IMG/VR virus record: IMGVR_UViG_3300047195_000698
Coordinates: 1-35,567 of that record
Origin: a virus
Length of the DNA stretch: 35,567 nt
Reading direction: 5' to 3' (one strand)
Shown here: positions 1 to 35,567 of the stretch, piece by piece
Numbering within the stretch: position 1 is the first letter of the stretch
How the letters are laid out: each line of letters opens with the position of its first letter
Notes under the pieces: generated by a model
Database searches by the model: none
What the model was told of the DNA's origin: nothing
What the model saw: only the letters and a program-made list of their open reading frames with translations
Position numbers and translations under genes: made by a program

Positions 1-127
1 AAAGACTCAAGAGATGCTCACAAAACCACTCAAATAATTGGCCTGGGGCTACATGCCATCGGTACACTCAAATTGCGATTTGAGTGAAGCCGTAGAAGCC
101 CCATCCTTCAGGGTGGGGAGTAGTCAC
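1..127 (+). mobile_element. tnpB 3'-end / omega-RNA remnant, copy 1
   Basis: This stretch is identical over all 127 bases to 962-1088. Its 3' end (GAAGCCCC, short hairpin, GGTGGGGAGTAGTCAC) matches the layout of the 3' end of the intact tnpB element at 20608-20666 (GAAGCCCC, hairpin, GGTGGGGAGTGGTCAC). Frame 1 encodes a degenerate TnpB C-terminus: RDAHKTTQIIGLGLHAIGT aligns with RDQNAALNILRLGLQSLGQ of the TnpB at 19474. I read it as a decayed IS200/IS605-type right end that keeps the guide-RNA scaffold region. The left limit may lie outside the window. If transcribed, the bases after 127 would be the guide. Confidence 0.75.
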
Positions 128-130
128 TTA

Positions 131-144
131 ATGTTAATTAACAT
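131..144. repeat. 14-bp perfect palindrome upstream of the first gene
   Basis: ATGTTAATTAACAT is its own reverse complement. It lies 15 bases before the ATG at 160, directly after the omega-RNA remnant, where an operator could sit. No regulator can be assigned. Confidence 0.35.
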
Positions 145-159
145 ATATGAGGTAATAAA

Positions 160-636
160 ATGAGCGACGATCTTATAAAGAAAGCCGAGGATATTTGTCG
201 GAAACTTGATGGGTTTCCAGTAAGGTCGCTCGATAACATAAAAGATTCTGAAATGACATTTCGGCAATTGGTAGCTGAGATCAAGCGCTTACAAGCAGCC
301 CTGATCGATTCTAGAGCTGAATATCTGAACACAATCGATGAGAACCCAGACGGAACAGCATGGACATTTGATGAGCAATCCGCAGAAAGACAAGCAGAAC
401 TGAGACACGATGCTTGCCAGAGCCTAGCGATGGAAGAGCCTATTATACTCATGCAATTGGCCGACAAAGATGCCCGGATTAAACAATTAGAACAAATCGC
501 CATCGAAGCAAAAGCAGAAGCCTTATTTCTAAATGATTCTGATGATAATTATTATCGAGTGTGGGCAGACGAAAAAGTCAAAACAATATATCACACACAA
601 GCCGCTAAGGAGTTGGTTATTCGGGTGGGAGAATAG
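160..636 (+). CDS. Hypothetical protein, coiled-coil (158 aa)
   Basis: I do not recognise a family. The protein is charged and mostly helical. A likely coiled coil lies around residues 40-60 (MTFRQLVAEIKRLQAALIDS) and another near 95-125 (rich in K, A and E). A GAGGTAAT ribosome-binding site lies at 149-156 before the ATG. The stop is followed at once by the ATG at 637, so the two are co-transcribed. Similar coiled-coil accessory proteins are common in early regions of tailed viruses, but no function can be given. Confidence 0.7.
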   Translation: MSDDLIKKAEDICRKLDGFPVRSLDNIKDSEMTFRQLVAEIKRLQAALIDSRAEYLNTIDENPDGTAWTFDEQSAERQAELRHDACQSLAMEEPIILMQLADKDARIKQLEQIAIEAKAEALFLNDSDDNYYRVWADEKVKTIYHTQAAKELVIRVGE

Positions 637-831
637 ATGTCTGTCACCAAAGCAATAGAGCTATTAGATATCTGGATTAATTTTTATTCCAAAGGAGGAG
701 GAAGGGCACATGGGCCAGATCAAGCCGCACTTGAAAAGATACGCGCTGAACTAGAACGGAATGATATGAAATATTTATCTCACGGGGTTAAGGGGCCAAG
801 AAGACCCCAGGGCGAAGGTCAAGAGACCTGA
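637..831 (+). CDS. 5' part of a gene interrupted by a 307-bp insertion
   Basis: The open frame encodes 64 aa, but only the first 48 or so residues belong to the original gene; the tail after MKYLSH is encoded by the inserted element. Removing 782-1088 joins TCTC to ATTTA and restores an in-frame reading: MKYLSH continues as LKQEGEGCDYTIGCG and on into the frame at 1151. The restored ORF would have about 145 codons. Alternatively translation of the downstream protein began at the internal ATG (766), which from memory resembles the usual N-terminus of the small EGCDYTIGCG-type viral proteins. Function is unknown. The ribosome-binding site GGTGGGAG precedes the ATG. Confidence 0.6.
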   Translation: MSVTKAIELLDIWINFYSKGGGRAHGPDQAALEKIRAELERNDMKYLSHGVKGPRRPQGEGQET

Positions 832-871
832 GACCCTCGCCCTTCAGGGTAGGGATGAATTGGCCCCTTAA
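788..871. repeat. Nested hairpin inside the insertion
   Basis: TTAAGGGGCCAA (788-799) and TTGGCCCCTTAA (860-871) are a perfect 12-bp inverted repeat. Inside it AGGGCGA pairs with TCGCCCT and AGGTC with GACCT around an AAGA loop. The bases at 831-858 (ACCCTCGCCCTTCAGGGTAG and on) resemble a diverged version of the GAAGCCCC...TTCAGGGTGGGGAGT omega-RNA end, so this could be the subterminal palindrome of an IS end or a second, unrelated omega-RNA-like end. Confidence 0.6.
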
Positions 872-961
872 AGGATTACTTTCTTGCGCCTCCATCTTAA
901 GCGAAAAGTATAAATATCATTAGGTTATATAGATATTGTTTGGTTTGTCTCTAGCAGTTGA

Positions 962-1088
962 AAAGACTCAAGAGATGCTCACAAAACCACTCAAATAATT
1001 GGCCTGGGGCTACATGCCATCGGTACACTCAAATTGCGATTTGAGTGAAGCCGTAGAAGCCCCATCCTTCAGGGTGGGGAGTAGTCAC
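962..1088 (+). mobile_element. tnpB 3'-end / omega-RNA remnant, copy 2
   Basis: This is identical to 1-127, which implies a recent duplication or gene conversion. A TATA-like element 45-60 bases upstream (AAAAGTATAAATA, 904-916) could drive a short RNA ending in the GTAGTCAC scaffold end. The presumptive guide would be the first bases of the interrupted gene (from 1089). Confidence 0.75.
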
Positions 1089-1150
1089 ATTTAAAACAAG
1101 AAGGCGAGGGGTGTGATTATACTATTGGATGTGGTAGTGTATTAATTCCC

Positions 1151-1381
1151 TTGACGGAAGATACAGAAAAGGAAATAAAATCAGTTTTAGAACATTATGG
1201 GGTTATTAATGACGAGGAAAGGCGATTATCAGAATGTATGGTGTTTGAGTATTTCTTTGATGTAATGCCACTTTATGATGCTTTAGTTAAAGAAAGTCAA
1301 AATATAGAGTATGAGCAAAAGAAAAGAGATTTGGTTAAAGCCATCAATAAAATGACAGAAGAGTATATTTCTATGAAGTAG
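1151..1381 (+). CDS. 3' part of the interrupted gene
   Basis: The frame is open from 1085, just inside the insertion, and reads HLKQEGEGCDYTIGCG before the first usable start, a TTG at 1151. The 76-aa remnant is acidic and helical (EDTEKEIKSVLEHYG, later EYEQKKRDLVKAINKM). The EGCDYTIGCG segment looks like the most conserved part and lies upstream of the TTG, so the product from this start is probably truncated and may not be functional. Unknown function. Confidence 0.5.
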   Translation: MTEDTEKEIKSVLEHYGVINDEERRLSECMVFEYFFDVMPLYDALVKESQNIEYEQKKRDLVKAINKMTEEYISMK

Positions 1382-2420: not shown

Positions 2421-3327
2421 GTGTTTTTACCACAGCGGAGATTTAGATGGATGGTGCAGTGGAGCAATCGTAAAATATAAGTTCCCAGAGGCAGAACTAT
2501 TTCCAATTAATTATGGAGATGCATTCCCTTGGGATGAGATTAAAAAAGATGATATAGTTTATATGGTCGATTTCAGTCTTAAGCCTTTAGAAATGGATAA
2601 ACTGGCTAGATTTTTAGGGCTTAAAGATTGCCGCGCAAGCGATAATTTCTTTTGGTTTGACCATCACAAGGGCATTATTGAGGATATGGAGGCTCTTAAG
2701 ATTTTGCCCAATGGTTGCTGGATTCGAGGTTATCGGCAAACTGGGGTTGCAGCCTGTGAATTAACCTGGCGGTATCTGTTCGGATCTGTAGTGCCAGATC
2801 ATATTAGGCTGTTAAGTTTGTATGATGTGTGGCAGCACAATGATGTAGATTTTGATTGGGATAATTATATTGAACCATTCCAATATGGATGTAAATATAA
2901 AGCGAAAGATCCCTCTAGGGATTGGACTTTTTGGAATAAGTTTTTTGGTTTTAGTCAGTCTCGCCCTAAAGAAGTTTTAGATTTTATACATTACCTTCTT
3001 GATTTTGGCTTCCCTATTAAATCTTATATTGAAGATCGATTCGAATCTACTTTAGAAACTAAATCATTTACTATAGATTGGGAAGGATATAAATGCCTAG
3101 TAGTTAATTCAGATCCTTACATCGCAAACTATATGACCAGATCTCAAGCATTTAAGGGATGTGATATAGCTATTAACTTTGTAAATGTTAAGAATCAATA
3201 TTGGGTAGTGAATTTACGTGCAGTAAGTGAGTGTATAGATCTCTCTGTCCTTGCGAAGAAGTATGGAGGCGGAGGACATCGATTGTCTGCGGGGTTTATA
3301 AGCAACACTTTGCCATTTGTTAGGTGA
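2410..3327 (+). CDS. DHH-family phosphoesterase (305 aa)
   Basis: DHH/DHHA1 enzymes hydrolyse phosphodiester bonds of short oligonucleotides or cyclic dinucleotides using two Mn ions. Visible motifs: motif I HSGDLDGW (residues 8-14, D11 and D13), motif II VDFS near residue 53, motif III FDHHKG (D84-H85-H86), an aspartate in YDVW near 138, and the C-terminal DHHA1 signature GGGGHRLSAGF around residues 287-297. All metal-binding motifs are present, so it should be active. It resembles NrnA/oligoribonuclease-type and predicted archaeal DHH proteins; RNA-primer or nanoRNA turnover during replication is an inference. Confidence 0.85.
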   Translation: MSIKCFYHSGDLDGWCSGAIVKYKFPEAELFPINYGDAFPWDEIKKDDIVYMVDFSLKPLEMDKLARFLGLKDCRASDNFFWFDHHKGIIEDMEALKILPNGCWIRGYRQTGVAACELTWRYLFGSVVPDHIRLLSLYDVWQHNDVDFDWDNYIEPFQYGCKYKAKDPSRDWTFWNKFFGFSQSRPKEVLDFIHYLLDFGFPIKSYIEDRFESTLETKSFTIDWEGYKCLVVNSDPYIANYMTRSQAFKGCDIAINFVNVKNQYWVVNLRAVSECIDLSVLAKKYGGGGHRLSAGFISNTLPFVR

Positions 3328-8848: not shown

Positions 8849-10729
8849 ATGTTAATCGAAACAACTTTTAGTGAAGATTATGACAATCTTTATAACAAAT
8901 TTAATCAAAATGAGCATGGCAAAAAGCTTTTGGACATTGACGGAATTTCCCGAAGATGTTTAGATGTAGGTTCTATGTCCCACGCCTATTTTACCCAAAA
9001 TCTTTCAAACGTGACTATAGATAATAATGCAAACGCGGATGAAGGTATATCTCCTAATAATTATGGAAGTGAAATTGTCCGAGGAATTCAAAAATTGGAA
9101 GGATATTATTTAATTCATAGGTATGCGACAAAGAGGTTTGATTTAAAGAGGGCGAATGAACTCTTGCGTTCTATTTGGTTAGGTGATGTTTATTTCCATG
9201 ATAGTAGCGGAATCGGAGTGCAGCAGCCATATTGTTTTGCGGCAAGCACAACTATGATTATGTTAGAGGGCAGACCTTATGGGAATTTACATAGTTTACC
9301 CCCAAAACATAGCGAATCATTTATTGGACAGTGTATTGAGTTTACGATGGATTTATCTCAGGCGTTTGTAGGCGCAATAGCTCTTGGAGATTTTTTTGTA
9401 AACTTTGCTTGGTACTCTAAAAAGGAAAATTTATCAGATAAAACTATACAAAACGAGTTACAAAAATTTGTACATGTCGTTAATAATTCTTTTCGCGTAG
9501 GCGGACAATCTCCATTTACAAATCTTAGTCTTTTTGATAGACCAAATCTTGAAAAAGTTTTCGAACATCATTTATATCCTGATGGGTCAAAACCCGATTT
9601 TGATTATATTGTTCATATACAAAAAATATTTGCAGAGTGGTTCGCAAAAGGAGACCCCGCTAGTGGTTTTCCGTACCGCTTTCCAATTGTAACAATAAAT
9701 TTATTAACTGATTTAAATAAAAATATAGTTGACAAGGATTTCCTAGATTTTATTTCAAGAGTTAATCTAGAGAGGGGTTGTTTCAACATTTATGTAAATT
9801 CTGGTGAGAAGGTGGCCAGCTGTTGCAGGCTTATAAATGACTCTTCTCGAATGAATTTTAAATCGGATACTCTAGGAAATGGTGGAGTTCAAATTGGTTC
9901 TCATAGAGTTGTTACCCTTAATTTACCTAGAATAGCTCTAAGATCAAAAGGGGATTTAAAGAAGTTCTACTCAGAATTAGATACTATACTCGAAACTTCT
10001 CGGGATCTACTCCAAATCCACCGAGAAGAAATCCTACGGAGAAGAGTTGAGCGAGGATTTTTAAAATTCTTTGAGCCTCTTAAATGGTTTTCGCTTAAAC
10101 ATCTGTTCTCCACTGTAGGCATAATAGGAGTTAGTGAAATGAATAAGTTAATGGGGTTTGATATAACATCTGAAGATGGAACTCAATTTACTCTTGATGT
10201 TCTTAATTATATCGAAGATTTTGCTAAAAAGACAAGTATTGAAACTAAACATAGCTTTAACGTAGAGGAAATTCCAGGAGAATCGGTTGCGTCCAAACTT
10301 TGTCAGAAGGATAAGGTTATTTTCGGGGAAGATAAAGTTCCGTTTGAATTATATTCTAATCAGTATATACCTCTAATTGAGAATGTTTCCTTACCCGAAA
10401 GAATAATTACTACAGGAAAATTTATGGAGATTCTTTCTGGCGGAGGTATTTTACATCTGAATGTGGCGGAACAAATTAAAGATTCCACTATTATGAAACA
10501 TTTAATTGAGTATTCTGTTCAGAACGGGATATCACATATGGCCGTGAACTACGGTTTTGGTACTTGTAAAAACAGCCACACAACTATATGTGGAAATTCA
10601 CCAAAATGCTCGATTTGTGGAGAAGATATTGACGATTATGTTACAAGAATTATTGGATATTTCAGCAAAGTATCAAATTGGAGTAAAACGAGAAGACAAT
10701 TTGAGTTTCCCAAGAGGGTCTTCCAATGA
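8849..10729 (+). CDS. nrdD: Anaerobic ribonucleoside-triphosphate reductase, catalytic subunit
   Basis: It reduces NTPs to dNTPs with a glycyl radical, strictly without oxygen. The C-terminal radical loop is RIIGYF with Gly603; the four-cysteine zinc site that precedes it is C573, C581, C587, C590 (TICGNSPKCSICGED). Cysteines of the active site lie in CFAAST (near 132) and in ERGCFNIYVNSG (near 311). The 626 residues begin directly with the catalytic domain: no ATP-cone is seen, so dATP feedback control may be missing, as in other viral reductases. AGGTGAT precedes the start. It ends in an ATGA overlap. Confidence 0.93.
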   Translation: MLIETTFSEDYDNLYNKFNQNEHGKKLLDIDGISRRCLDVGSMSHAYFTQNLSNVTIDNNANADEGISPNNYGSEIVRGIQKLEGYYLIHRYATKRFDLKRANELLRSIWLGDVYFHDSSGIGVQQPYCFAASTTMIMLEGRPYGNLHSLPPKHSESFIGQCIEFTMDLSQAFVGAIALGDFFVNFAWYSKKENLSDKTIQNELQKFVHVVNNSFRVGGQSPFTNLSLFDRPNLEKVFEHHLYPDGSKPDFDYIVHIQKIFAEWFAKGDPASGFPYRFPIVTINLLTDLNKNIVDKDFLDFISRVNLERGCFNIYVNSGEKVASCCRLINDSSRMNFKSDTLGNGGVQIGSHRVVTLNLPRIALRSKGDLKKFYSELDTILETSRDLLQIHREEILRRRVERGFLKFFEPLKWFSLKHLFSTVGIIGVSEMNKLMGFDITSEDGTQFTLDVLNYIEDFAKKTSIETKHSFNVEEIPGESVASKLCQKDKVIFGEDKVPFELYSNQYIPLIENVSLPERIITTGKFMEILSGGGILHLNVAEQIKDSTIMKHLIEYSVQNGISHMAVNYGFGTCKNSHTTICGNSPKCSICGEDIDDYVTRIIGYFSKVSNWSKTRRQFEFPKRVFQ

Positions 10730-15656: not shown

Positions 15657-16421
15657 ATGCATCCCCTCTTCACCCCTGAAGAAAACTATGATTTTCTGAA
15701 CCATTCCATTAAGGCAGATTCTATAGCCTCCGCATACAAACAAGCCCTAACAACTATTTTAACCCACGGAATTGATTTCAAGGATGAGCGCGGGGATAAA
15801 ATGAAGACCCTTTTTAATTTGATGGTGACGGTTAAAAGGCCTCTGGAGGGGTTAGAAGAATTAGAAGAGATGCATAAGCGAGGTTTGTCTCCTTATAGTA
15901 GAGAGTTTTTAGATTCTTATGCAGATCAACTTATTAATGGCCCAAAAGAGAGCGAATACCCCTTTGAATATAATTATAATGAAAGATTGAGAAAAAGATG
16001 GTCCCGATTGGGTAAAAATGAGTTTCAATCTTTAGAGAATGATGAAGTAGTTGATTCAGAATATTTAGATCAAATAGACCAAGCAATCAAAAATTTGAAT
16101 AAAAATCCTAATTCAAGAAGAATTGTTTGTGTTACCTGGATTCCATCTGTGGATACTAGAAAAATTGATGTGCCTTGTTTGAACTACCTTGTATTTTATA
16201 ACATAAGCGGTAAGTTGCACCTAAGTGTAGCATTTCGCTCACACGATGTTTTCGGAGCGTATGCTTCAAATCTTTACGGGATATCGCGACTATTGGAATA
16301 TGTGGCCTTAAGGACGGGTTTGAAAATAGGAACTTTAACCGTAATTTCTGTAAATGCTCACTACAACAGGTTGTTCGAAGAGGATGTAATTCGGATAATA
16401 AAATATAAAAGGCGGTGTTAG
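15657..16421 (+). CDS. thyA: Thymidylate synthase, ThyA family (254 aa)
   Basis: Converts dUMP to dTMP using a methylene-folate or archaeal pterin donor. Recognised from the conserved half: NSRRIVCVTW near residue 155, catalytic Cys174 in DVPCLNYL, the phosphate-binding RSHDVFGAY, SNLYGISRLLEYVA containing the asparagine that selects dUMP, and VNAHYN. The short length and the DVPCLNYLVFY wording resemble the methanogen-type ThyA rather than bacterial ThyA. The asparagine argues against dCMP hydroxymethylase. Pairs logically with the dUTPase-family gene at 3728. Confidence 0.85.
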   Translation: MHPLFTPEENYDFLNHSIKADSIASAYKQALTTILTHGIDFKDERGDKMKTLFNLMVTVKRPLEGLEELEEMHKRGLSPYSREFLDSYADQLINGPKESEYPFEYNYNERLRKRWSRLGKNEFQSLENDEVVDSEYLDQIDQAIKNLNKNPNSRRIVCVTWIPSVDTRKIDVPCLNYLVFYNISGKLHLSVAFRSHDVFGAYASNLYGISRLLEYVALRTGLKIGTLTVISVNAHYNRLFEEDVIRIIKYKRRC

Positions 16422-18359: not shown

Positions 18360-19058
18360 ATGTCCGTCAAAGTCCTAGGCAGAAAAGCCTACCATAGAAT
18401 TCCTCACCTTTCTCAAGGGAGTCATTTGGGCGCGGGAGATTTTAGAATTTCTGAAGGACAGAGCAAAATCTGCACCGAGAAAGCAAGGAAGGGTGATTAT
18501 ATAATTTGCCAGGAAAAATTAGACGGCACATCCGTAGCAGTAACACGAAAAGATGGAATTTTAATACCAATAAATCGCGCGGGCTATGAGGCCATAAGTG
18601 CTAAATGGAAACAGCATCACCTTTTCGCTAACTGGGTTTATAAAAATTTAGATCATTTTGAGTTTTTAGAAGAAGGACAACGGCTTTGTGGTGAGTGGCT
18701 GGCTCAAGCCCACGGAACTTTATATAATTTAGAACATATTCCGTTTGTAGCTTTTGATCTAATTGGACCAGGCGGGGTTAAAGTGTATAATGATTTTGAC
18801 TCTATTGTGCCTAATTGGTTTCCAAGGCCTTATTTGCTTCATCAAGGTGGGCCTTTTTCTATTCAAGATGCAGAAAATGCGATTGGGGAACTTGGACATC
18901 ATGGAGCTACTGAATTAGCCGAAGGCGTTGTGTGGAGGGTAGAGCGAGACGGAAAAATAGAGTTTATGGCTAAGTATGTTCGAGGGAGCAAAGTAATTGG
19001 TAAGTATCTAGATGGCGAAATAGAGGTTTGGAATCTTGGACTGGAGAAGTGGATTTAA
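18360..19058 (+). CDS. RNA ligase, Rnl2-like nucleotidyltransferase (232 aa)
   Basis: ATP-dependent ligase that joins RNA ends through lysine adenylation. Motif I EKLDGTS with K53, motif III GEWLAQAHG near residue 117, motif IIIa FVAFDL near 134, motif IV AEGVVWRVE near 193 and motif V FMAKYVR near 209. The HLSQGSHLG start and short length fit the T4 Rnl2/viral RNA ligase group, without an OB fold. RNA repair, such as tRNA resealing after host cleavage, is the usual proposal; the true substrate is unknown. Confidence 0.82.
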   Translation: MSVKVLGRKAYHRIPHLSQGSHLGAGDFRISEGQSKICTEKARKGDYIICQEKLDGTSVAVTRKDGILIPINRAGYEAISAKWKQHHLFANWVYKNLDHFEFLEEGQRLCGEWLAQAHGTLYNLEHIPFVAFDLIGPGGVKVYNDFDSIVPNWFPRPYLLHQGGPFSIQDAENAIGELGHHGATELAEGVVWRVERDGKIEFMAKYVRGSKVIGKYLDGEIEVWNLGLEKWI

Positions 19059-19115: not shown

Positions 19116-19442
19116 ATGAAAATGACTATTGAGATGGATGTAAATCGGGAGCAAGCTATAACGCTCCGCGAGATGTTTAAATATTGGAATAGACTTGCTG
19201 GAATTGGATCAAGTAGATATGTTGCATTTTTTGTAGATGGGGATGGAAATTTTCATCCAGACATAAAAATGGAGTTCTCTGAAGAATTACCTAAACTTGA
19301 AGAAAAATATTTAGAATCTGCAATAAAGAAAAATCCACATGGTTATAAGGTTTATGAAGGTGATAGATTCTATGACTTTGATCCAATAGGCTGGGCTCTT
19401 TTAAAGAAAGAACACCCGGAAGAGTTTAAGCGAAAAGTATAA
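19116..19442 (+). CDS. Hypothetical protein (108 aa), 3' end in the IS left end
   Basis: It begins MKMTIEMDVNREQAITLREM and contains VAFFVDGDGNFHPDIKMEF, a pattern seen in small phage proteins. The C-terminal FKRKV and stop fall inside the 20-bp segment shared with the insertion at 897, so the last residues may be encoded by the transposon and the original gene may have been slightly different. Confidence 0.6.
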   Translation: MKMTIEMDVNREQAITLREMFKYWNRLAGIGSSRYVAFFVDGDGNFHPDIKMEFSEELPKLEEKYLESAIKKNPHGYKVYEGDRFYDFDPIGWALLKKEHPEEFKRKV

Positions 19443-20666
19443 ATACTATGAAGTACATAATACCAAGAGTCCTATGACTAAGAAAACCTATAAATTTAGG
19501 ATTTTTCCTTCTAAGGAACAAGTCCGTATCTTGAACGAGACGCTTGATCTTTGTAGGTGGACCTATAATCAAACCTTGGCTTACAGAAAGAACCTTTGGG
19601 AAACTGAGCAGAAAAATACATCTAAGTACGATTCTCATTATTTGCTCCCTATTTGGAAACAGGAAAAGCCGGAGCTAAAAAATGTATTCTCACAGGCGCT
19701 CCAGAATGTTCAGGAAAGAGTAGACTTGGCTTTTCAAGCATTCTTCCGTAGAGTAAAGGCTCACGAAAATCCGGGCTATCCTAGATTCAAGGGAAAGGGT
19801 TGGTATGATAGTTTTACCTATCCTCAGTCTGGGTTCGGACTTAAAGATGATAAGATCCTTTGGCTTTCCAAGATTGGTGAAATCAAGATAAAACTTCATA
19901 GAAAAATTGAAGGCACAATAAAGAGGCTTACGATCAACAGATCAACACGAGGAAAGTGGCATGTGTCTTTTTCTGTAGAACAACGGTTAAATCACGATTT
20001 AACTGAACCCCAGGTTTCACACAGCGATTTGGTTATAGGCATTGATCTTGGTTTAACTAGTTTCGCCACTTTCTCGGACGGTAGCAAAATTGAGAACCCT
20101 AGGTTTTTTAGAATCGAAGAAAGGGCGCTCTCTAAAACCCAATCCAAAAGAGATAAGTTGCCGAAGGGTTCGTTAGAGAGGAACAAAGTAACTAAAGTTG
20201 TACGAAGAATTCATGAGAGAATTGCCAATAAAAGGCTGAATTTCGCACATCAACTCAGTCATGATTTGGTGGAGAAATACGGAATTCTTTGCTTTGAAGA
20301 TTTGAATATAAAAACCATGATGCAGACTGCTCCGCGCAGTCTAGCCAAGAGCATATCCGACGCTTCTTGGAACTTTCTAGTAAGACTAACACAGTACAAG
20401 GCTGAAAGTGCTGGTAGTGTAGTGGTTTTAGTAGATCCAAAGAATACGTCCCAAATGTGCTCAAGGTGCGGGGTAATTGTACCCAAAGACCTCTCTGTTC
20501 GAGTCCATAAATGTACTTGTGGATTAGAAATGGATAGGGATCAAAACGCCGCATTGAATATTTTGAGACTGGGACTACAGTCTCTCGGCCAAATAAAACG
20601 GGTCGTAGAAGCCCCGCTCTTTCACCCGAATTGTTATTCGGGTGCTTTAGGGTGGGGAGTGGTCAC
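19426..20666 (+). mobile_element. TnpB-only IS200/IS605-type element
   Basis: The left limit is set by TTAAGCGAAAAGTATAAATA (19426-19445), identical to 897-916 in the non-autonomous element; the right limit by the GGTGGGGAGTGGTCAC omega-RNA end shared, with small changes, with 1-127 and 962-1088. It carries tnpB but no tnpA transposase, so movement would need one supplied elsewhere. Exact ends are uncertain by several bases. Confidence 0.7.
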
Positions 20667-20685
20667 ACTTAGCAAACCTATATAG
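19474..20685 (+). CDS. tnpB: TnpB RNA-guided nuclease
   Basis: TnpB proteins are RNA-guided DNA endonucleases, ancestors of Cas12, using an omega RNA from the element's right end. The N-terminus (KFRIFPSKEQVRILNETL, RWTYNQTL) is the usual helix-turn-helix region. The RuvC-like residues are present: D191 in GIDLG, E275 in FEDLN, and DRDQNAALNIL around D356. The zinc ribbon is CSRCG (near 329) with CTCG. The 403-aa protein appears complete and active. A TATA box (AAAAGTATAAATAC) is about 32 bases before the ATG. The last 30 codons overlap the omega-RNA region. Confidence 0.93.
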   Translation: MTKKTYKFRIFPSKEQVRILNETLDLCRWTYNQTLAYRKNLWETEQKNTSKYDSHYLLPIWKQEKPELKNVFSQALQNVQERVDLAFQAFFRRVKAHENPGYPRFKGKGWYDSFTYPQSGFGLKDDKILWLSKIGEIKIKLHRKIEGTIKRLTINRSTRGKWHVSFSVEQRLNHDLTEPQVSHSDLVIGIDLGLTSFATFSDGSKIENPRFFRIEERALSKTQSKRDKLPKGSLERNKVTKVVRRIHERIANKRLNFAHQLSHDLVEKYGILCFEDLNIKTMMQTAPRSLAKSISDASWNFLVRLTQYKAESAGSVVVLVDPKNTSQMCSRCGVIVPKDLSVRVHKCTCGLEMDRDQNAALNILRLGLQSLGQIKRVVEAPLFHPNCYSGALGWGVVTLSKPI

Positions 20686-34566: not shown

Positions 34567-35567
34567 TTACACCGCCACTCCCATCAAAATCCAGCGGTTA
34601 GTAGTTCCCGCAATGTAAACCAATGTTGCCATTCCTGCGTTATTTGTCGAAACAGTCCCGCCCGTTGATGTCATAATGCGGTTTGCGGCATCAGATGTCG
34701 CATTATTTACAAACCCCATATCATTTGAAAGAGGGTTATAAATATACAAAACCGCCCCATCCGTTCCACCAGCAAAACCAGTGATCGTAAAATTACCGGT
34801 CGGACCCGCTATGACATAAACTCGAACTCCAGCCGTTAGAGCTATATTACTATTTGCGCCATTTGCTAGAGTTAAAGTTCCGCTTGGACGAGCAATATCC
34901 TGAATATTGAGCTGCCTAAATGTTGGAGTCGCAGCCGCAGCACCAACAGCCGGACCCGAAAGAACTGTACTTGCTGTCTGCGTATCAAGACTTATAGCTT
35001 GTCCTGTTAGGTCCATTAAACCTGTTGCGCTTGCTGCTAGTGTTACAGCAGGAGCCGCAGACAAAGCCGCTGTAGCAAAGTCCGAGACATCTGTACTAGA
35101 CAGGGTTCTAAAGGTTGGAGTGGCGTCTGCGCCCGCTGCGGGACCAGCTAAGATAGTATTTTTGACCTGCGTATCAAGACTTATAGCCTGACCAGTTAAG
35201 TCCATTAAACCTGTTGCGCTTGCTGCTAGTGTTACAGCTGGAGCGGCAACAAGAGCAGCCGCAGAAAAGTCTGATATATCTGCACTTGATAAAACTCTCA
35301 TAGTGGGCTTCGCCGCGCCACCAGAAGCCGGTCCCGCAAGAACTTTATTTGCAGTTTGTGTATTAAAGTCTATTTCTTGAGTGGAAAGGTCAAGAACAGT
35401 ATCTGCTGCTACACTAAGAGTTACTGGAGGCGCATCTAAAACCGTCTGGGTATGAAAATCTGAGATATCTGCATGAGAAAGTATTCTGAATGTGGGTGCC
35501 GCCGCTGGATCTGCCGCAGGTCCTGAGAGAACTGTATTTTTGGCTTGAGTGTCAAGACTAACCGCCT
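34567..35567 (-). CDS. Tail fibre, repeat-containing, incomplete at the window edge
   Basis: The minus-strand frame is open from the window end to the stop at 34567-34569, so the N-terminus lies outside. At least three repeats of 63 residues (189 bases) are seen, with the core PTFRxLSSADISDF, APAVTLAASATGLMDLTGQ, AISLDTQ and VLAGPAxG. After them comes a C-terminal domain (GTLTLANGANSNIALTAG, GGTDGAVLYIYN, ending RWILMGVAV) like the tip of phage tail fibres. An internal ATG at 35299 is not the true start. Its job would be host recognition. Confidence 0.8.
   Translation of the reverse strand, partial: AVSLDTQAKNTVLSGPAADPAAAPTFRILSHADISDFHTQTVLDAPPVTLSVAADTVLDLSTQEIDFNTQTANKVLAGPASGGAAKPTMRVLSSADISDFSAAALVAAPAVTLAASATGLMDLTGQAISLDTQVKNTILAGPAAGADATPTFRTLSSTDVSDFATAALSAAPAVTLAASATGLMDLTGQAISLDTQTASTVLSGPAVGAAAATPTFRQLNIQDIARPSGTLTLANGANSNIALTAGVRVYVIAGPTGNFTITGFAGGTDGAVLYIYNPLSNDMGFVNNATSDAANRIMTSTGGTVSTNNAGMATLVYIAGTTNRWILMGVAV
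35011..35239. repeat. 189-bp coding repeats in the tail fibre
   Basis: GTCCATTAAACCTGTTGCGC begins at 35011 and again at 35200; the flanking 60 bases are nearly identical, while the third unit (35380 onwards) has diverged. The near identity of two units suggests recent duplication or conversion. Confidence 0.7.

Follow-up and report, generated by a model that had tools for sequence, protein, structure and literature searches.

The stretch of DNA analysed here (the window, 35,567 nt) is the whole of the archaeal-virus record IMGVR_UViG_3300047195_000698, classed as linear in IMG/VR, and it very probably carries a complete 310-bp non-autonomous IS200/IS605 element of the palindrome-associated transposable element (PATE) kind, moved in trans. 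Its features are listed in Table 1, in which this element is copy 2; copy 1 represents the right-hand end of another copy, whose left part, boundary included, lies beyond the contig start. A first-pass annotation had described both places as identical, solitary tnpB 3' remnants. Self-comparison of the window confirmed the identity, at 127 of 127 bases, and also the decayed TnpB C-terminus in both copies, where one frame reads KDSRDAHKTTQIIGLGLHAIGT with a stop soon after (intact TnpB reads MDRDQNAALNILRLGLQSLG). The scaffold end GTAGAAGCCCC..GGGGAGTAGTCAC was likewise found in both, and the last bases of both are GTAGAAGCCCCATCCTTCAGGGTGGGGAGTAGTCAC; neither copy holds a nuclease gene, and the 403-aa TnpB is present at 19474-20685, as had been noted. 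The term solitary fails for copy 2, in which the element starts at 779 and includes a left-end hairpin and a BRE/TATA-like box.

Table 1. Coordinates of the element copies, their flanks and the resident tnpB in the window.
Feature	Position	Strand	Basis or remark
Right-hand 127 bases of second copy (copy 1)	1..127	+	Identical to 962-1088; R1 match 16-127; contig edge
Would-be guide of copy 1, TTAATGTTAATTAACATATA	128..147	+	Directly 3' of right end; predicted
Viral gene interrupted by copy 2, 5' part	637..778	+	Joined to 1089-1381 gives one 144-aa ORF
TTTAT target motif (TAM), left of element	774..778	+	G001 copy also preceded by TTTAT
Complete non-autonomous IS200/IS605-type (PATE-like) element, probable, copy 2, 310 bp	779..1088	+	Second site in G001; empty-site ORF; homologue across junction
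Left-end (LE) subterminal palindrome/hairpin	788..871	+	DNA fold, 12-bp outer stem, z -2.5
BRE/TATA-like promoter (CGAAAA 902-907, TATAAATA 909-916)	897..925	+	Resembles region upstream of tnpB
Omega-RNA scaffold of copy 2, end AGTAGTCAC	977..1088	+	R1, 49.0 bits, E 1.6e-9
Scaffold parts of copy 2	stem 1 1000-1019; stem 2 1021-1053; terminal hairpin 1060-1079	+	R1
Would-be guide of copy 2, ATTTAAAACAAGAAGGCGAG	1089..1108	+	Directly 3' of right end; predicted from TnpB biology
Interrupted viral gene, 3' part	1089..1381	+	Same 144-aa ORF after excision of 779-1088
TnpB, 403 aa, candidate partner nuclease	19474..20685	+	Pfam OrfB_IS605 and Cas12f1-like_TNB
Omega-RNA scaffold of resident TnpB, overlapping gene 3' end	20539..20666	+	R1, 70.6 bits, E 1.3e-14

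Boundaries and insertion site

A scan of viral contigs with the right end gave one further record, IMGVR_UViG_3300037264_009889 (G001), in which positions 2496-2793 match 774-1088 of the window at 92% identity. TTTAT on the left and the right end GTAGTCAC are common to the two copies, and the window and G001 share almost no DNA beyond the element and tnpB. Since the two records are otherwise nearly unrelated in DNA, the element occupies different places in two viruses and is mobile. The earlier suggestion of decaying elements accordingly stands for the protein part and not for the element itself, which has intact ends, target motif and scaffold.

The left junction of copy 2 reads TTTAT/CTCACGGGG (778/779) and the right junction GTAGTCAC/ATTTAAAAC (1088/1089), with TTTAT/ATTTAAAAC as the empty site. 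Two homologues of the interrupted gene (L183 and L184, 44% identity) read YLYMKQEGEGCDYTIGCG through the junction, compared with YLY/LKQEGEGCDYTIGCG in the window, and excision of the G001 copy in silico gave one zinc-finger-type ORF, ...CLCCEKEFYCNPGNIERGGGKFC. As ORFs were restored by both joins, insertion took place 3' of TTTAT without duplication, in the IS200/IS605 manner. We rejected a 5-bp duplication of the target (ATTTA) at copy 2, since the homologue retains the extra residues and the G001 site is without duplication.

At the left end, the layout GAAGACCCC...GGGATGAAT was also found upstream of related tnpB genes; the right-end (RE) hairpin at 1060-1079 has 8 bp, and the right end closes with TCAC. 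No ORF of at least 80 aa was found inside 779-1088, and in place of the internal tnpA or tnpB of an autonomous IS605 element there is the decayed TnpB C-terminus alone. The exact element core was not found in the genome contigs. The element very probably derives from a tnpB transposon that lost nearly all of its tnpB coding core. It retains both ends needed by a Y1 transposase, the BRE/TATA-like box of archaeal type and, at its 3' side, the omega-RNA scaffold.

Contig start and the length of the repeat

The record is linear and was analysed whole; the first base of copy 1 is therefore also the first base of the assembly, and the contig start cuts this copy off. The largest k in common SPAdes runs is 127, and contigs of Candidatus Methanocrinis natronophilus with SPAdes-style names end inside TnpB elements with exact 127-base matches to other copies (L098 against L107, and L107 against L033). 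The 127 bases are thus not a biological length, being what is expected of a de Bruijn assembly with k=127, and the true repeat at the contig start may be longer; more generally, exact repeat lengths at contig starts should be read with caution, as they may be set by the assembler. Another reading takes the duplication for an assembly artefact: there would be a single element, and the contig would open with a spurious 127-mer or join two variants of a mixed population. The exact length of the repeat, its start at base 1 and the occurrence of 127-base contig-end overlaps elsewhere speak for it. We consider it improbable, because a de Bruijn contig in which the 127-mer is followed by TTAATG requires reads across the junction, so that some members of the population, at the least, have an element end adjoining base 128, and because mobility of this element is seen in a second virus too. 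The reads should still contain the junction of copy 1 to base 128. At the other end of the record, a 189-base unit is repeated in tandem within a minus-strand ORF (34940-35567), in slightly more than three copies that are 72% and 61% identical to the first, and the contig end falls inside this array.

Omega-RNA scaffold

A covariance model (R1) was constructed from 37 TnpB 3' ends, taken from other viruses and from cellular genomes, with the window and G001 left out; double changes support 12 of its 15 pairs. Copy 1 was matched by R1 at 16-127 with the same score as copy 2 (49.0 bits, E 1.6e-9) and the G001 element with 65.0 bits, and the matches ranked next had E values above 0.2. The elements keep standard pairing at 14 of the 15 consensus pairs, the exception being one C-U mismatch in stem 1, so that the name remnant given to them earlier fits their protein part and not their RNA scaffold. 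Compared with the common TnpB stem, stem 1 carries three double changes, and the scaffold region of G001 differs from that of the window mainly in extra bases that fold into a hairpin within the loop of stem 2. These changes fit constraint on the RNA; they could also come from an unseen parent TnpB. The three scaffolds in the window, whose folds the first-pass annotation had proposed to compare, were all matched by R1; the element scaffold differs from that of the resident TnpB, whose terminal hairpin is longer. Single-sequence RNA folding of the element gave a minimum-energy structure without stem 1, which is not decisive. An Rfam scan at gathering thresholds and a tRNA scan returned nothing.

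Promoter-like box

The box, termed BRE/TATA-like from its sequence, lies in a region (897-925) that is 86% identical to 19426-19454 over 29 bases. The first 20 bases, TTAAGCGAAAAGTATAAATA, recur unchanged in the sequence that begins 48 bases before the start of tnpB. After the box come about 36 bases and then the tnpB 3' part. Transcription from the box, starting at about 935-940, would give an RNA of about 150 nt whose 3' end extends into the flanking sequence, the flank serving as the guide. Were the element mainly a mobile promoter serving the viral genes beside it, the direction of the box toward the downstream flank and the ORF start at 160, 32 bases past copy 1, would be in keeping with this; however, the hairpin-rich scaffold stands between promoter and flank, and copy 2 breaks a gene rather than driving one, which leaves this reading hardly credible.

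Resident TnpB, transposase and host

The resident TnpB has the RuvC and zinc-finger motifs GIDLG (189), FEDLN (274), CSRCG (329), CTCG (347) and MDRDQNAA (353) and matches solved TnpB chains (8bf8/8h1j) at about E 2e-49. Its nearest relatives are methanogen TnpBs, with 64-66% identity in Methanotrichaceae, and the nearest among phage records belongs to a Methanosarcinales virus (58%). Y1 transposase (Y1_Tnp) was not found in the window virus or in G001 and is present in several Methanotrichaceae genomes, which makes a host TnpA the likeliest mobiliser; the element was probably moved by it, and such an enzyme would excise and insert the element as single-stranded DNA. Right ends of Methanotrichaceae TnpB elements are at most 91% identical to the last 35 nt of the element, and one right end without TnpB is 94% identical. 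The left-end hairpin is absent from both viral tnpB copies (window 19425-19474; L007, from G001, 2950-3001), whose shared DNA runs from TTTAAGCGAAA. TnpA may no longer be able to mobilise these copies, and homing may be the way in which they spread.

The host is probably a methanogen. No near DNA relatives of the virus were found among phage records and no DHH gene in viral contigs, and relatives of the DNA polymerase reach only 25%. The virus also encodes anaerobic ribonucleotide reductase, thymidylate synthase and RNA ligase family proteins (8849-10729, 15657-16421 and 18360-19058), which fit an anaerobic host.

Function of the retained scaffold

Two readings of the scaffold were weighed. 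By a narrow lean, the element is probably a purely selfish PATE: TnpA needs the DNA ends alone, and the scaffold would be a passenger without guide function, carried over from tnpB through the overlap of the right end with the omega-RNA. The terminal hairpin and TCAC are parts of the right end anyway, methanogen right ends without TnpB occur with damaged scaffolds (L096 and L106), stem 1 has its one mismatch, and the double changes in that stem could come from the unseen parent. Against this, stem 1 is not part of the terminal hairpin but lies some 70-90 nt from the end, and it has been retained with three double changes while the neighbouring RuvC-III coding stretch decayed, and the TATA-like box has been retained as well.

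The other reading, already raised in the first-pass annotation, is that both copies supply guide RNAs in trans to the TnpB at 19474 or to a host TnpB, so that one nuclease would use several guides; judged from sequence features, this is possible, if somewhat doubtful. It is favoured by the recognition of the scaffold by an independent covariance model, the retained promoter-like box, a TnpB with active-site motifs in the same genome, the likewise joint presence of a TnpB and this element in G001, and the TTTAT motif, which is a published archaeal solo-tnpB motif (PMC10640517). On the other side, the element scaffold differs from that of the TnpB, and the guides are without a close off-site target in the sequences searched: in the window, G001 and two relatives (L137 and L138) no off-site match went beyond 11 nt and none had a TAM, matches of the copy 2 guide beyond its own flank reaching at most 11 nt, without TAM. 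In Sulfolobus islandicus the motif is TTTAA, and TTTAT for solo-tnpB elements (PMC10640517); the resident tnpB may use TTTAA and not TTTAT.

If the elements did supply guides, a virus or host TnpB could bind the element RNA and cut empty sites (TTTAT plus flank), favouring retention and spread. A viral TnpB served by several mobile, self-promoted guide mini-elements, homing or protecting dispersed nuclease-free insertions, would amount to a natural split gene drive in an archaeal virus, a proposal that we regard as unlikely. Nuclease-free elements with a working guide scaffold would illustrate how RNA-guided nucleases can come apart from their guides in nature, a step that the path from TnpB to CRISPR arrays also requires. 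Because the element is small (310 bp) and has known boundaries, with two predicted guides and a TnpB in the same genome, guiding in trans is directly testable.

Relation to known elements

PATEs of Haloquadratum walsbyi are IS605-derived, transposase-free elements that arose by core deletion, with subterminal palindromes, a short targeting oligonucleotide and no inverted terminal repeats (PMC3119063). The present element resembles them in having no transposase or complete gene, in its near-terminal palindromes (LE 788-871 and RE 1060-1079, the last 35 nt being 91-94% identical to methanogen IS605-type right ends), in its insertion 3' of a short oligonucleotide (TTTAT) without target duplication in both copies with known left ends, and in the dispersal of its copies over the window and G001. 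It differs from them in residing in a virus whose host is probably a methanogen, with a TnpB in the same genome, and, whereas the Haloquadratum PATEs consist of fused termini only, in two unusual features that it retains, the TATA-like box and the omega-RNA scaffold in full. As in the omega-RNA or reRNA of ISDra2 (PMC8612924) and SisTnpB1 (PMC10640517), the scaffold lies at the right end, the flank would be the guide and the motif is of the TTTAA/TTTAT type; unlike in those systems, the scaffold overlaps no tnpB gene, and a nuclease would be needed in trans.

Similar elements were found in methanogens. Methanoculleus chikugoensis (L100) has an LE-RE mini-element of about 285 bp after TTTTAT, and core-deleted tnpB elements of Methanotrichaceae consist of a C-terminal stub and the scaffold (L150, L151, L156 and L157). 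In L156 (G005:C90:11009-13700), from a Methanothrix harundinacea MAG, a Y1 TnpA is directly followed by the tnpB stub and an intact omega-RNA scaffold, giving a transposase-plus-guide element without nuclease. Stand-alone omega-RNA loci, in which the guide scaffold likewise has no adjoining nuclease, have reportedly been described in OMEGA systems by Altae-Tran in 2021 and Meers in 2023. The literature searched contained no account of a PATE that serves TnpB as a guide.

Insertion of the G001 TnpB element

The TnpB element of G001 (L007) splits a tail-type gene ten codons from its end; the gene is uninterrupted in the relatives L137 and L138. Two copies of the gene end flank the element (L007 2898-2930 and 4177-4209). 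The native end, GTGATTAGTTATAGAGATAAATGGTCGGCGTAA (VISYRDKWSA*), stands just right of the element and is the closer of the two to the L137/L138 ends, with agreement at 26 of 33 bases against 21 of 33 for the copy just left of the element, GTGATAAGCTATAGGGACAAGTGGAGTGCATGA. The left-hand copy codes for the same ten residues, but 8 of its 11 codons are altered, each synonymously, so that the gene product is restored. The guide of the G001 TnpB is the first 20 nt of the native end and has mismatches to the recoded copy at positions 6, 9, 15 and 18. No second case of a recoded end was found among the other TnpB loci scanned. This arrangement possibly resembles a natural 'home-and-rescue' drive, and it may be more unusual than the 310-bp element.
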